The translations under genes were made by a program, and so were the position numbers. From the NCBI RefSeq assembly GCF_014192055.1, contig NZ_JACHXM010000012.1:1-64000 (forward strand): a stretch of 64,000 nucleotides of DNA, given 5' to 3'. The stretch is from Halomonas organivorans. Lineage in GTDB: Bacteria; Pseudomonadota; Gammaproteobacteria; Pseudomonadales; Halomonadaceae. The notes below the pieces were generated by a model. That model ran no database searches, was not told where the DNA came from, and saw only the letters and a program-made list of their open reading frames with translations. Below, one piece after another: positions 6,664 to 14,370 of this stretch (within the stretch, counting starts at the first letter, position 1; every line of letters starts with the position of its first letter).

Positions 6664-7437
6664 TCAAAGAATGAGTTGTTTCAGCGGCATCCAGAGCCCC
6701 ATGGCCATCATGATCAGGTTCTCGGTTAAGGAGACGAAGCCCAAGGGCACGTTGCTGTTGCCGCCCACGCAGGCGCACTTCAGCTCGCGCTTGTCGATAT
6801 AGACAGCCTTGAATACCGAAACGGCCCCCACCGTGCCGATAAACAGCGCCAGGGGTGCTGCAAGCCAGATCAGGGCCCCCGTCAGCATCAGGATACCGGC
6901 CAGGGTCTCGGCGAAGGGATAGACGTAGCTGTAAGGCACATGCCTCTGGGCGAGCAGGTCATAGTTGAGAAACATGGTGCTGAAGCTTTCGACATCCTGC
7001 ATCTTCTGCAGCCCCAGCAGGGTCATGGCGGTGGCAATCGCATATTCCGGCATGCGCAATGACACGAGGGTGCCGCTGGCCGTCCAGCTCACCGCCAGGC
7101 CGATCAGCAAGGATGTCGCGAAGATGGCGATGACCGGCTGATAGGTGGTCTCCTTCTCGCCGGGCACGCTCATGCCCAGGTGGGCGCGAACCTCCTCATA
7201 GCCCCCCACGCGCTCCTCGCCGATGTAGACCTGAGGCGTGGTATCGACACCGGCCTGCTCCTTGAACGCCTCGATCGCCTCCCGCGAGGTGAGGGTGTGA
7301 TCATCGACTCGATAGCCCTTGCGCTTGAGAAGATCCACGGTCTTCAGGCCAAACGGGCAGAGGTGCTCTTCCGTCTTCATACGGTAGACACGGGCCGTCT
7401 TGTGCGGTGCAGCAGACGCCGACGCAACGCTACTCAT
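6664..7437 (-). CDS. Glutaredoxin-MauE/DoxX fusion membrane protein
   Basis: 257 residues. An N-terminal glutaredoxin fold (about 15-90) has active site HLCPFG (C27) and TTPQVYIG, then GGYEEV, the usual glutathione-binding surface. The second active-site cysteine is replaced by glycine, so a monothiol mechanism is expected. Residues 100-255 form four or five helices of the MauE/DoxX type, with a CACVGG pair (C221, C223). MauE-type proteins handle disulphide redox at the membrane. The start has GGAGG 9 bases upstream. It is the first gene of a minus-strand operon with the APC permease, behind a MerR-type promoter. Electron donor and target are unknown. Confidence 0.75.
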   Translation of the reverse strand: MSSVASASAAPHKTARVYRMKTEEHLCPFGLKTVDLLKRKGYRVDDHTLTSREAIEAFKEQAGVDTTPQVYIGEERVGGYEEVRAHLGMSVPGEKETTYQPVIAIFATSLLIGLAVSWTASGTLVSLRMPEYAIATAMTLLGLQKMQDVESFSTMFLNYDLLAQRHVPYSYVYPFAETLAGILMLTGALIWLAAPLALFIGTVGAVSVFKAVYIDKRELKCACVGGNSNVPLGFVSLTENLIMMAMGLWMPLKQLIL

Positions 7438-8225: not shown

Positions 8226-8327
8226 CCCTCATGAAAAACTCACCACTCACATTCTTCAAGCAATTGATTAATAATATATTTTTTAAGAAAATCAACCTTA
8301 AGATCCAGAACATCGAGTAGCTTCGCG

Positions 8328-10082
8328 ATGCCCGTGCTATCGAGCGCCTCCCCCCTGTCGACGGGCCTCGGATTGGCCTTGCTGGTCTCGCTATGCCTCG
8401 TCGCCTGGCCGGCCGCCGGCCAGACCACGCCGGGCACGGCAGGTGACCCGCGCGGCAGCGATGATGTGATCGTGGTCGGCGGCGACCACTACCATCCACC
8501 CTACGAGTTCCTCGACGAGGACGGTCGGCCCACCGGCTACGACGTCGAGCTGACTCGGGCCATCGCCGAGGTGATGGGCATCGAGGTACGCATCGAGCTG
8601 GGCCCCTGGAGCGAGATGCGCCACAAGCTGGAAACCGGCGAGATCGACGTCCTGGAGGGCATGTCCTACTCCGAGGCTCGCGACGCCAGCTTCGACTTCG
8701 CCCCGCCCCACGCCATCGTCCACCAGTCGATCTTCGCCCGCCGCGGCACGCCGCCCGTGGAACGCCTGGAGGAGCTGCGCGGCAAGGAGGTCATCGTCCA
8801 GCGCGGCGACATCATGCAGGACCTGCTGATCGAGCAGGACGTGGGGGCCGAGCTGTTCACCACCGACACCCATGCCGACGCGCTGCGCGCCCTCGCCGCC
8901 GGTCAGCACGACTACGCCCTGGTGGCCAATCTTCCGGCGCTGTACCTGAGCCGCGAGCTGGGGCTGACCAACCTGGTGCCGGTCGCCCGTCCCTTCTCGC
9001 TGCGCTACGGCTATGCCGTGAAGGAGGGCAACGCCGACGTGCTCGCCCAGTTCAGCGAGGGGCTGGCGATCCTCAAGAACACCGGTCGCCACCAGGCCAT
9101 CTACGACAAGTGGCTGGGCCCGCTGGAGCAGGGGGAGGGGCTGCCGTGGAAGCGGCTTGGCATGATCGGAGCCATCGCCTCGGCGCTGCTGCTGTTGATC
9201 CTGGGCGGCATCGTGATCTGGAATCGCCTGCTCAAGCGCGAGGTGGCAAGCCGCACGGCGGAGCTGCACCGCCAGCAGCAGCAGCTGATCCAGGCCGACA
9301 AGATGTCCTCGCTGGGCGTGCTGGTCTCCGGCGTCGCCCATGAGATCAACAATCCCAGCGGTCTGCTGCTGCTGAACCTGCCGGTGCTGCGGGATGCCCA
9401 CGACGACGCCCGGCCCATTCTCGAGGCCCACTATCGCGAGCACGGCGACTTCCCGTTCGGCGGTCTGCCCTACTCGCGCATGCGTGACGAGGTGCCCTCG
9501 ATGCTCGACGAGATGCTGGAAGGCACCCAGCGCATCAAGCGCATCGTCGGCGATCTCAAGGACTTCGCCCGCCAGGGCAGCCACGATCTCGGCGAGCGCC
9601 TCGATCTCGACGAGGTAACCAGGACCGCGGTGCGGCTGGTCGATAACTCGATCCGCCAGGCCACCGACCGCTTCGAGGCGCACTACGCGGGCGATCTGCC
9701 CGCGGTGTGGGGCAATGCCCAGCGCATCGAACAGGTGGTGATCAACCTGGTGCTGAACGCCTGCCAGGCGCTCGAGGATCGCGATCGGGGCATACGCCTG
9801 ACGACCCGTTTTCTCCCTGGCGACGGGACCGTGACCCTGGAAGTGCACGACGAGGGACGGGGCATCGATCCGGCGGCGCTGTCCAGGCTGACCGACCCCT
9901 TCTTCACCACTCGGCGGGAGTCCGGCGGCACCGGCCTGGGGCTGTCGGTCTCCGCCGGCATCGTCCGCGAGCATGACGGCGACCTGGCCTTCGCCTCGCG
10001 CCCAGGCGAGGGCACCAACGTCACCTTGACGTTGCCCGTGGCCCCGCCCGACGACGCTGTCCCCCATCGGAACGAGCGATGA
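8328..10082 (+). CDS. Sensor histidine kinase with periplasmic amino-acid-binding (SBP_bac_3) domain
   Basis: 584 residues. A signal peptide or anchor (1-31) is followed by an SBP family-3 domain (about 46-265; YHPPYEFLDEDGRPTGYDVEL, GEIDVLEGMSYSEAR), one helix (about 278-300), a short coiled coil, a HisKA-type domain with H338 in SGVAHEINNP and an HATPase domain (NLVLNACQAL, DEGRGIDP, GGTGLGLS). It should sense a small amino-acid-like ligand in the periplasm and phosphorylate the regulator encoded next, with which it overlaps by 4 bases. The genes downstream point to glutamine, glutamate or another amino acid as ligand, which is inference. The ATG at 8328 gives a good signal peptide, but its Shine-Dalgarno is weak. 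Confidence 0.9.
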   Translation: MPVLSSASPLSTGLGLALLVSLCLVAWPAAGQTTPGTAGDPRGSDDVIVVGGDHYHPPYEFLDEDGRPTGYDVELTRAIAEVMGIEVRIELGPWSEMRHKLETGEIDVLEGMSYSEARDASFDFAPPHAIVHQSIFARRGTPPVERLEELRGKEVIVQRGDIMQDLLIEQDVGAELFTTDTHADALRALAAGQHDYALVANLPALYLSRELGLTNLVPVARPFSLRYGYAVKEGNADVLAQFSEGLAILKNTGRHQAIYDKWLGPLEQGEGLPWKRLGMIGAIASALLLLILGGIVIWNRLLKREVASRTAELHRQQQQLIQADKMSSLGVLVSGVAHEINNPSGLLLLNLPVLRDAHDDARPILEAHYREHGDFPFGGLPYSRMRDEVPSMLDEMLEGTQRIKRIVGDLKDFARQGSHDLGERLDLDEVTRTAVRLVDNSIRQATDRFEAHYAGDLPAVWGNAQRIEQVVINLVLNACQALEDRDRGIRLTTRFLPGDGTVTLEVHDEGRGIDPAALSRLTDPFFTTRRESGGTGLGLSVSAGIVREHDGDLAFASRPGEGTNVTLTLPVAPPDDAVPHRNER

Positions 10083-11509
10083 GCATGAACCTCTATCCCG
10101 CCTTCGGCCTGCTGCTGGTCGACGACGAGCCCTCCTTCCTGCGCAGCCTGAGCATCGCCCTGGAGCGCAGCGGCGGCATCAATCACCTCCATCGCTGCGA
10201 GGACAGCCGCCAGGTGATGGACATCCTGGCACGGGAGAACATCGGCCTGGTGACGCTGGACCTCACCATGCCCCATCTGTCAGGCGAGGCACTGCTGCGC
10301 CGGATCGTCGAGGAGCATCCCGACGTCGGCGTGATCGTGATCAGCGGCCTGAACCAGGTGGAAACCGCCGTCGACTGCATCAAGCACGGGGCCTTCGACT
10401 ACTTCGTCAAGACCGACGAGCAGAGCCGGCTGATCGAGGGCATCAAGCGGGCCATCCGCCTGCAGGAGCTGCGTCAGGAGAACCAGGAGCTGCGGCGGCG
10501 CTTCCTCAACGACACCCTGGAACATCCCGAGGCGTTCGCCGACATCGTCACCGACGACAAGGGCATGCGCTCGGTCTTCCAGTACCTCGAGTCGGTGGCC
10601 CCGAGCGGCCAGCCGCTGCTGATCGGCGGGGAGAGCGGCGTCGGCAAGGAACTGATCGCCCGGGCGGCCCATGCCCTGAGCGGTCGGCCCGGGCCGCTGG
10701 TCTGCGTCAATGCGGCGGGGCTCGACGATGGCGTCTTCGCCGACACCCTGTTCGGTCACGAGAAGGGCGCCTTCACCGGGGCCGACCGCCCCCGCGCCGG
10801 GATGGTCGAGCAGGCCGCCGAGGGCACCCTGTTCCTCGACGAGATCGGCGATCTGAACCCGGCCTCCCAGGTCAAGCTGCTGCGCCTGCTGCAGGAGGGA
10901 GAGTATTACCCGCTGGGCAGCGACCGCCCCAAGCGGGCGCGGGCGCGCATCGTGGTGGCGACGCATCACGACCTCGAGGCACGCCAGCGGGCAGGCGACT
11001 TCCGCAAGGACCTCTACTACCGGCTGCGCACCCACCAGGTGTGGATTCCCCCGCTGCGACGGCGCCGCGGCGACATCCCGCTGCTGCTGGACCACTTCCT
11101 CGCCGAGGCCGCCGACGAGCTCGGCAAGCCGCGGCCGACCTATCCCCCGGAGCTGCCGGTGCTGCTGGCCAACCACCCCTTCCCGGGTAACGTGCGTGAA
11201 CTGCGCGCCATGGCCTATGACGCCATGAGCGTCCACCGCTCGCGGACGCTGTCCATGGAGGTGTTCCGTCGCGCCATCGAGCCGGGACACCCGGCCCCCG
11301 AGCCGCCGGATACCTGCGATGAACGCCACGTCTTTGCCCCCGACGAGCCCCTGCCGACGCTGCACGAGGTCGCCGACCTGCTGGTCCGCGAGGCCATGCA
11401 CCGCGCCGAGGGCAACCAGTCGATCGCCTCGCGGCTGCTGGGCATCTCCCAGCCGGCGCTCAGCAAGCGGCTGAAGAAATTGCGCGAGGCCGGCTCGGAA
11501 CCCCTATAA
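10079..11509 (+). CDS. Sigma-54-dependent response regulator (NtrC family)
   Basis: 476 residues: receiver domain (1-125; acidic D15/D16, phospho-acceptor D61 in TLDLTMP), AAA+ domain with Walker [10 protein letters not shown] (183-191), the sigma-54 contact loop GAFTGA (230-235), Walker B LFLDEIGD (251-258), and a Fis-type helix-turn-helix at the C-terminus ([20 protein letters not shown]). It activates RpoN promoters after phosphorylation. Its start overlaps the kinase stop. The obvious target is the sigma-54 promoter at 11686-11701 in front of the symporter gene. Confidence 0.95.
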
Positions 11510-11522
11510 CCCGTACGCCCGA

Positions 11523-11536
11523 ATAACCTTGGTTAT
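11523..11536. promoter_or_regulatory. Palindrome ATAACC-TT-GGTTAT, candidate activator site
   Basis: A perfect 6-bp dyad with a 2-bp centre lies about 150 bp upstream of the sigma-54 promoter, the usual distance for an enhancer bound by an NtrC-type regulator. It also sits 14 bases after the regulator stop codon, so it could be part of a weak terminator. Only one clear copy was found. Confidence 0.4.
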
Positions 11537-11685
11537 ATCGCCATAAACTTCTTTATTTTCAATTATTTGTATCAATAATAGCGCCACGGCGTGTCGCGAA
11601 GTTATACCCCTTCACCATCGTGCCTTGCCCAAAGAACCACTCTTTAAACCATACAAAACAATGAGCTAACGGAAACTCCACCATC

Positions 11686-11701
11686 TGGCACGCGCCTTGC
11701 T
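11686..11701 (+). promoter_or_regulatory. Sigma-54 (RpoN) promoter
   Basis: TGGCACGCGCCTTGCT matches the consensus TGGCACG-N4-TTGCW, with GG at 11687-11688 and GC at 11699-11700 in the required -24/-12 spacing. It lies directly behind a sigma-54 activator gene and in front of agcS and glsA. Transcription should start near 11712. Confidence 0.9.
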
Positions 11702-11763
11702 CCATGGGAAGTGGCTCCGCGACGGGAGCCACCACATTCCAAGAGCAAGAGGTTCGACGACCA

Positions 11764-11843
11764 ATGCCAACAACAACGAAGGCGGCCACACCGGCCGCGA
11801 CCGCCTCCCCCGCCTTGATCATCGCCAACGTGGGAGGTGCCGC

Positions 11844-11856
<13 letters not shown>
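11764..11856 (+). CDS. Candidate 30-residue leader peptide overlapping agcS
   Basis: An ATG at 11764, about 50 bases after the predicted start of transcription, opens a frame reading MPTTTKAATPAATASPAL and ending in ...AACSR with a TGA at 11854-11856. It overlaps the first 13 bases of agcS, whose Shine-Dalgarno (GGAGGT, 11833-11838) lies inside it. Translation of the leader could control access to the agcS ribosome site. Its own ribosome site (AGAGG) is poor and the peptide may not be made. Confidence 0.3.
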
Positions 11857-13310
<1,454 letters not shown>

Positions 13311-13321
13311 CGCCCCCCGAG

Positions 13322-13365
13322 CGCGACGGCCCAGCCACGGATGACTCCGTGGCTGGGCCGTCGCG
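13322..13365 (+). terminator. 20-bp perfect hairpin between agcS and glsA
   Basis: Arms 13322-13341 and 13346-13365 pair over 20 bases without mismatch around a TGAC loop, 12 bases after the agcS stop. There is no T-run after it. It may end part of the transcripts, or act as an mRNA 3' stabiliser that sets agcS above glsA. Confidence 0.75.
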
Positions 13366-13404
13366 TCCTGATCCCTCTCGATACGAGCCCATCGGAGAGA
13401 CTTC

Positions 13405-14370
13405 ATGGAAGCCATGCAGCAATGGGTGGAAAGCCTGGAACGCCGCGCCAGGTCCCGCCTGGGCATCGGCCGCGTCGCCGACTATATTCCGGCGCTGGCG
13501 GAGCAGGACGCCAACCGGTTCGGCATCGCGATCTGCACCAATCAGGGCAAGATCTACCACGCCGGCGAGGCCCAGGTGCCCTTCTCGATCCAGAGCATCG
13601 CCAAGGTGCTGCTGCTGACCCTGGCCCTGCGCGTCCAAGGTGATGCGCTGTGGACGCGCGTGGGCCGCAATCCCTCGGGCATGCCCTTCAATTCCCTGAC
13701 CCAACTGGAGGCGGAAGGCGGCAAGCCCCGCAACCCCTTCATCAACGCCGGTGCCATCGCGGTGACCGACCGCCTGGTCGGCGCCTTCGCCACGCCCTCG
13801 AAGCACCTGCGCGACGTCGCCCGCCGCCTGTCCGGCAACCCGGCGATTCACATCGACGATGCCGTGCAGGCTTCCGAGTGGCGACATCGGGCCCGCAACG
13901 CGGCCATGGCCTACCTCATGAAGGCCTTCTGCCACCTCGACAACGAGGTGGACGAGGTCCTGACGGCCTACTTCGCCTGCTGCGCGCTGTCCATGAGCTG
14001 CGTCGACCTCGCCCGCGCCTTCAACTTCCTGGCCGCCGAGGGCCATGCCCTGTCCCTGGGCGAACGCTTCATCGCCCCCGACCTGGCGCGGCGGATCAAC
14101 TCGCTGCTGTTCACCTGCGGTATGTACGATGCGGCGGGCGACTTCGCCTACCGGGCCGGTTTGCCGGCCAAGAGCGGCGTCGGCGGCGGCATCGTCGCCA
14201 TCGTGCCCGGCCGCTTCTCGGTCTGCGCCTGGTCGCCGGCGCTGGATGAACGCGGCAACTCGGTGGCCGCCCAGTACGCCCTAGAACTGCTCGCCGACGA
14301 TCTGGGCCGCTGGTCCGGTATCGTTCCCGCCGGCTTGCCTTCGGGGGGCAGGATGACGCCCATCATGTAG
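13405..14370 (+). CDS. glsA: Glutaminase A
   Basis: This 321-residue enzyme hydrolyses L-glutamine to glutamate and ammonia. It is a serine-dependent beta-lactamase-fold enzyme: PFSIQSIAKVLLLTLAL (about 57-73) contains the catalytic Ser-x-x-Lys, NPFINAGAI the conserved substrate loop, and KSGVGGGIVAIVPG the C-terminal glycine-rich motif. The length is close to the usual 305-330. Lying after the AgcS symporter and the sigma-54 control genes, it completes an uptake-and-deamidation pathway. The ATG follows GGAGAGACTTC. Confidence 0.93.
   Translation: MEAMQQWVESLERRARSRLGIGRVADYIPALAEQDANRFGIAICTNQGKIYHAGEAQVPFSIQSIAKVLLLTLALRVQGDALWTRVGRNPSGMPFNSLTQLEAEGGKPRNPFINAGAIAVTDRLVGAFATPSKHLRDVARRLSGNPAIHIDDAVQASEWRHRARNAAMAYLMKAFCHLDNEVDEVLTAYFACCALSMSCVDLARAFNFLAAEGHALSLGERFIAPDLARRINSLLFTCGMYDAAGDFAYRAGLPAKSGVGGGIVAIVPGRFSVCAWSPALDERGNSVAAQYALELLADDLGRWSGIVPAGLPSGGRMTPIM

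Follow-up and report, generated by a model that had tools for sequence, protein, structure and literature searches.

The locus described here lies in a 64,000-nucleotide (nt) stretch of Halomonas organivorans DNA (contig NZ_JACHXM010000012.1, positions 1 to 64,000 of the forward strand), called the window below, and contains genes for a sensor histidine kinase (HK), an NtrC-type response regulator (RR), an importer of the alanine/glycine:cation symporter family (AgcS) and a glutaminase (GlsA), together with a sigma-54 promoter, candidate operator sites, a leader open reading frame (ORF) and an inverted repeat (Table 1). The HK carries a single N-terminal, periplasmic SBP_bac_3 domain (residues 48-264), a membrane helix probably within residues 274-309, a HisKA match of 26.8 bits that falls 0.1 bit short of the cut-off of 26.9 (H-box residue H338), and a HATPase_c domain (residues 463-572), which, with HisKA marginally below its cut-off, is the layout of the sensor HK29S of Geobacter sulfurreducens (PDB 3h7m). 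The RR gene overlaps the HK stop codon by 4 nt with its ATG, and its product has the receiver, Sigma54_activat and Fis-type helix-turn-helix (HTH) domains of an NtrC-type regulator, with a GAFTGA loop in the AAA+ domain of the translation. An earlier note on this DNA had described a kinase with a periplasmic amino-acid-binding domain whose gene overlaps that of an NtrC-type regulator, and both the domain and the overlap were confirmed. AgcS scored 470 bits against TIGR00835 (cut-off 272.65), and the start of its gene was placed at 11844, which by eye is preceded by GGGAGG, rather than at the TTG at 11697 of the mechanically called ORF. GlsA scored 420 bits against the glutaminase B model NF002132 (cut-off 381). 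The genome has one glutaminase, three AgcS-family genes and a single sigma-54 gene.

Table 1 Features of the sensor-regulator and agcS-glsA locus in the window
Feature	Position	Strand	Basis or remark
Sensor histidine kinase (HK), 584 aa	8328-10082	+	Pfam SBP_bac_3 (E 6.6e-31), HATPase_c (E 6e-25)
NtrC-type response regulator (RR), 476 aa	10079-11509	+	Pfam receiver, Sigma54_activat (E 5.4e-53), HTH_8
Candidate operator half-site TATAACC	11505-11511	-	Sequence; overlaps RR stop codon, weakest of the three sites
Candidate operator palindrome ATAACC-TT-GGTTAT	11523-11536	.	Sole copy of ATAACCNNGGTTAT in the genome
Candidate operator AGTTATACCCC	11600-11610	+	One mismatch to consensus GGTTATANCCC; 86 bp upstream of the -24 box
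Sigma-54 promoter TGGCACG-N4-TTGCT (-24/-12)	11686-11701	+	Exact pattern match
Leader ORF (MPTTT...), 30 codons	11764-11856	+	Stop codon finishes 10 nt downstream of the agcS initiation codon
AgcS, alanine/glycine:cation symporter family; predicted amide amino-acid importer	11844-13310	+	TIGR00835, PF01235, relative 6cse
Perfect inverted repeat, 20 bp, no U-run, between agcS and glsA	13322-13365	.	Sequence
Glutaminase GlsA	13405-14370	+	NF002132, PF04960; PDB relatives including 2pby and YbaS 1u60

Related loci were collected by a scan of named genomes, and the best 80 of 286 relatives were compared. By their neighbouring genes 25 of these carry agcS, 41 carry a gene for an SDF sodium:dicarboxylate symporter and/or an aspartase-type lyase (SDF/AspA), and 14 belong to neither class, the last including short contigs and two loci (L077 and L084) in which an SDF-like ORF is cut at the locus end. 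The promoter ahead of agcS, described in the earlier note as near-perfect, turned out to be better than that, its sequence TGGCACGCGCCTTGCT matching all 12 specified bases of TGGCACGNNNNTTGCW; the 4.8-Mb genome contains three exact matches and one match to the reversed control. When boxes were scored by matches to the 12 specified bases, the best box being chosen with GG and GC fixed, a box of 10-12 was present upstream of agcS in 26/26 sequences (the window and 25 relatives). In the 80 loci together (1,285,516 bp, both strands, true sites counted) 150 boxes scored at least 10, so that about 0.02 would be expected on a single strand of a 340-bp gap, and with the box conserved upstream of agcS a chance origin of the promoter is very unlikely. 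A sigma-70 scan of the region gave 2 candidates against 0.8 expected, one of them weak and ahead of the HK gene at 8246-8275.

Alignment of the gaps upstream of agcS revealed two conserved blocks, the palindrome ATAACC-N2-GGTTAT, intact in 15 of the 25 agcS-bearing relatives, and further down GTTATA, usually followed by CCCTT. The consensus GGTTATANCCC was found 63 times in 56 of the 80 loci, with a sigma-54 box at most 400 bp downstream of 55 copies (43 at 84-87 bp), while control searches with the reversed pattern and with two shuffles of it yielded 2, 2 and 1 sites, all five lacking a box. The distance from site to box has its mode at 86 bp in the relatives, as in the window, and strict copies at 75-95 bp occur in 18/25 agcS loci, 23/41 SDF/AspA loci and 6/14 other loci, being lacking in 33/80. 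The HTH core NQS(I/L)A..L.G(I/V)SQPALSKR(L/V) was present in all 14 regulators compared (the window and 13 chosen loci). These sites, which the earlier note had not mentioned, are conserved upstream of a -24/-12 promoter, as in NtrC-type systems, and would be operators bound by the RR.

The gene order recurs in other genomes. Presence of agcS and glsA in the 80 loci was called by tblastn, and glsA accompanies agcS and the HK gene in 22 of the 25 agcS loci, the other three having no match (L045), a contig that ends inside agcS (L057) or an NAD-glutamate dehydrogenase gene instead (L064). In a survey of 151 genomes of the family (E <= 1e-60), the regions of which overlap with the 80-locus set, the sensor was found in 19; agcS was present in 15 of these 19 regions and glsA in 14 of the 15, once in two pieces. 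Among the Onishia-like relatives, G070 has its local glsA as two matches (C1:1716178-1717009) and L045 has none.

In the circuit proposed here, the periplasmic Venus-flytrap domain of the HK would bind an amino acid, most likely L-glutamine, and the HK would phosphorylate the RR encoded by the overlapping gene; RR oligomers on the palindrome and on the site 86 bp from the -24 box would then activate RpoN-polymerase, agcS would be transcribed, glsA would be reached by read-through past the hairpin, and imported glutamine would be deamidated to glutamate and ammonia. The earlier note had drawn the same chain from sensor through NtrC-type activator and sigma-54 promoter to agcS and then glsA, which is well supported by the conserved order, promoter and operator, and the architecture is close to certain. 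Judging from the sequences, it is very probable that an importer and a deamidating enzyme acting on an amide amino acid are induced through the sensor and regulator, and a local induction circuit for such an amino acid, with glutamine as the most likely ligand, is to us the fairly probable explanation of the whole.

The sensor-regulator pair is found beside other genes as well. The 41 SDF/AspA loci come from Photobacterium, Oceanisphaera, Geomonas and others, and clustering showed 18 loci to have a LysR-type regulator and 10 to have an Asp/Glu racemase-like gene; one representative lyase passed NF008909 (aspartate ammonia-lyase subfamily) and fell below the aspA equivalog cut-off, and one representative SDF protein fell below the GltP and DctA cut-offs. 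Further neighbours are an SBP_bac_3 protein (L066, and by clustering L067 and L068), an ammonium transporter (L106, and by clustering L116), an NMT1-like protein (L102) and, by eye, unrelated genes (L065, L121). In a locus of the Desulfobacterales (L095, 3721-7000) the pair precedes genes for a Na+/H+ antiporter-family protein and an asparaginase, and sigma-54 boxes and an operator lie ahead of these two. A quick, midpoint-rooted kinase tree, in which several long branches were flagged, mostly outside the group concerned, placed all 26 agcS rows in one 31-row group (SH-aLRT 100), the other five being L062 and L065-L068.

A single module with a single history is rejected by these distributions, with 41 of the 80 loci having SDF/AspA neighbours and 14 falling in neither class. 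The earlier description of the locus as self-contained is only partly right, since the pair and the operator also occur more widely than agcS-glsA, at other importers, and glsA can be missing or split. Because the pair is broadly distributed, it appears to be older than the agcS-glsA module, a reading that rests on the midpoint-rooted tree. The SDF/AspA-side pairs resemble that of the window in kinase-regulator family, HTH core, operator and sigma-54 spacing, and differ from it in neighbouring genes and in two positions of the pocket region, 56 and 161, at which the clades differ fully (H56/D161 on the agcS side, Y56/G161 on the SDF/AspA side). They would be explained by a sensor cassette with exchangeable output, in which the RR HTH and the operator about 86 bp before the -24 box stayed nearly frozen from Desulfobacterota to Halomonas, the importer was replaced, and the pocket switched when the output moved to an amide importer; we find the case for this evenly poised. 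The exchangeable outputs would be SDF with aspartase, AgcS with glutaminase, AgcS with NAD-glutamate dehydrogenase, an SBP_bac_3 importer protein and perhaps the Na+/H+ antiporter family with asparaginase. This conserved operator with changing cargo is a more interesting point than the glutamine claim, and it would offer a testable natural series of one sensor-regulator lineage with a constant DNA address and changing cargo. A literature search of open-licence papers, some seen as partial texts and including Desulfovibrio and cross-phylum sigma-54 papers, found no description of such pairs beside SDF or aspartase-like lyase genes.

The ligand pocket was compared across 121 kinase proteins. The residues D10, T70, R75 and F50 of GlnBP correspond to D53, S113, R118 and W94 of the HK, Ser being counted as equivalent to Thr and Trp to Phe, and HK position 53 is Asp where GltI has Arg; R118, W94 and N201 are present in 121/121 kinases and D53 in 120/121. 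Two of six literature contacts were among the top five of 223 positions (P = 0.006), a comparison framed after the ranking had been seen and only a hint. A second AgcS encoded in the same genome (L160, 4831-7376, C43) is 82.5% identical to that of the window and has an asparaginase-like (type I) gene 56 nt downstream; within the 8.8-kb locus examined, no GGTTATA site and no sigma-54 box of at least 10 was found ahead of it. Such an AgcS gene lay directly upstream in 9 of 30 loci examined, from 55 asparaginase matches listed in 101 genomes, and the pair occurs in 8 genomes other than this one. Genes of this AgcS branch thus stand next to amidase genes for each of the two amide amino acids, the strongest hint that its cargo is an amide, and AGCS proteins are reported, in the parts of the literature available, to transport glutamine in Campylobacter jejuni, Staphylococcus aureus and Bacillus subtilis. 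Glutamine is accordingly only a best guess for the predicted amide cargo, and as the ligand of the HK it is favoured slightly more than not.

Several observations weigh against glutamine. The Asp that binds the alpha-amine in GlnBP (D157) corresponds to Ala200 in the HK, with N201 adjacent, and is Ala or Gly in 121/121 kinases; F13 of GlnBP is His56; D53 and R118 are common to the clade with aspartate/dicarboxylate neighbours and do not single out glutamine; two of the 121 proteins combine F56 with D161; the pocket change maps to a single split of the tree and so offers no case of repeated co-evolution; and the asparaginase-like gene misses its curated cut-offs, with 329 bits where NF006998 requires 376 and 254 where TIGR00519 requires 260.5. 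The same circuit could answer to another amino acid (asparagine, histidine, alanine, glutamate or aspartate), with AgcS carrying that one or several. The SDF/AspA neighbours and the missing amine Asp speak for this, as do the naming of the solved AGCS member (6cse) as a sodium/alanine symporter, the binding of histidine as well by the CdgH PBPb-II domain, and the Pseudomonas sensor AauS, which controls a similar gene set and, according to the accessible part of PMC7962211, is thought to respond to glutamate. With Asp at 53, a glutaminase downstream in 22/25 loci and a complete difference from the SDF/AspA side at two positions, however, we consider such a ligand unlikely. Glutamine as ligand and cargo, which the earlier note had proposed with a related amino acid as the alternative, would be the best guess from the AgcS-amidase pairing and the GlnBP-like pocket residues.

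The induction circuit was also weighed against an importer switch compatible with the same ligand, in which the RR drives agcS only and glsA is expressed independently. Here the counter-evidence to read-through is the strong hairpin between agcS and glsA and the keeping of HK-RR-agcS where glsA is absent (L045) or split in two matches (G070), with another glutaminase elsewhere in G070 and in G081; against the proposed circuit more generally, 7 of the 25 agcS loci lack a strict GGTTATANCCC at 75-95 bp, and the window copy has its one mismatch. Since the agcS-glsA gap is merely 94 nt, without a sigma-54-like site even with up to 2 mismatches, and glsA is kept in most agcS loci, independent expression is rather improbable. 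Among 22 other sequences the stems differ from that of the window, perfect stems being 7-13 bp in 16 and 3-6 bp in 6, and the hairpin may protect or process the mRNA or lower glsA expression. Very unlikely, finally, is a closed ligand-free or otherwise tuned flytrap answering a general signal (nitrogen, stress) rather than an imported amino acid, for which the crystallisation of HK29S in a closed and empty form, its authors being said in the part of PMC4352136 at hand to propose that it might not open, and the uniformly missing amine Asp could be cited, but to which the near-invariant D53, R118, W94 and N201 and the usual amino-acid importers or enzymes beside the pair (exceptions L065, L106 and L121) are opposed.

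The leader ORF, like the hairpin, adds to the earlier note. Its start and frame are kept in 22 of 23 Halomonadaceae sequences, the start lying 77-86 nt upstream of the last base of the agcS initiation codon and the end at or just beyond the agcS start, and the leader stretch of 26 sequences has 31 in-frame ATG codons against 1 out of frame. Substitutions at codon positions 1/2/3 were 567/657/602 in the 12 sequences with a -83 start (26 codons), with no third-position excess, and 1130/1198/1366 in all 23 (codons 2-13), a mild excess. In view of the lack of a clear codon-position bias the peptide itself is probably not the point, and our guess is a translational-coupling leader for agcS.

By analogy, the circuit proposed here would combine the logic of GlnK-GlnL with parts of the AauSR type and a sensor of another kind. 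In B. subtilis GlnK-GlnL exerts glutamine-induced two-component control over an AGCS-family importer and a glutaminase, glsA-glnT (PMC2743287, PMC3412718, partial texts). The gene functions controlled are alike and the order is agcS-glsA in the window. To our knowledge GlnL is not a sigma-54 activator. The Pseudomonas AauS-AauR system, as far as the accessible text of PMC7962211 goes, has an RpoN-dependent enhancer-binding regulator for Glu/Asp/Gln use with a linked glutaminase-asparaginase, targets aatJQMP through two operators upstream of a -12/-24 box, and has putative sites at gltP and ansB. It resembles the window in its regulator and paired operators and differs in its DctB-type sensor (of a DctBD-type system) as opposed to SBP_bac_3, in its operator (TTCGG-N4-CCGAA versus ATAACC-N2-GGTTAT) and in its ABC importer and periplasmic AnsB versus AgcS and GlsA; the AauR site was sought in the window with 0 matches and rejected. 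HK29S differs from the window HK in having Y and G at H56 and D161 and M at N201; no ligand or targets for it were found in the literature covered, partly as excerpts, and a search by PDB code gave no paper relevant by title. Among open-licence papers no title described a sigma-54 glutamine circuit in Halomonas.

If the proposed circuit is correct, AgcS importers usually annotated as alanine carriers would likely have a role in glutamine uptake (asparagine for the paralog), the HK29S sensor family, with a structure released in 2009 without ligand, would gain a function, and residues 56, 113 and 161 would be candidates for setting kinase ligand specificity. Nothing found supports the earlier idea of glutamate as a solute in a halophile, and deamidation to supply carbon or nitrogen would account for the locus just as well; the pair occurs beside other genes in Geomonas too, a genus not known to us as halophilic.

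Elsewhere in the window (6664-7437) a glutaredoxin domain is fused to a MauE/DoxX-type membrane domain, adjoining an amino-acid permease. The other two exact sigma-54 boxes of the genome lie about 100 bp ahead of a haem-protein-like ORF followed by a radical-SAM-like ORF (L162, 4427, C2), by eye probably a quinohaemoprotein amine dehydrogenase operon, with an AAA+ regulator-like ORF at 1-1518 of that locus, and beside a NasT-like ANTAR-type regulator (L163, 5073, C14), facing a molybdopterin oxidoreductase-like ORF that by eye is probably an assimilatory nitrate reductase.

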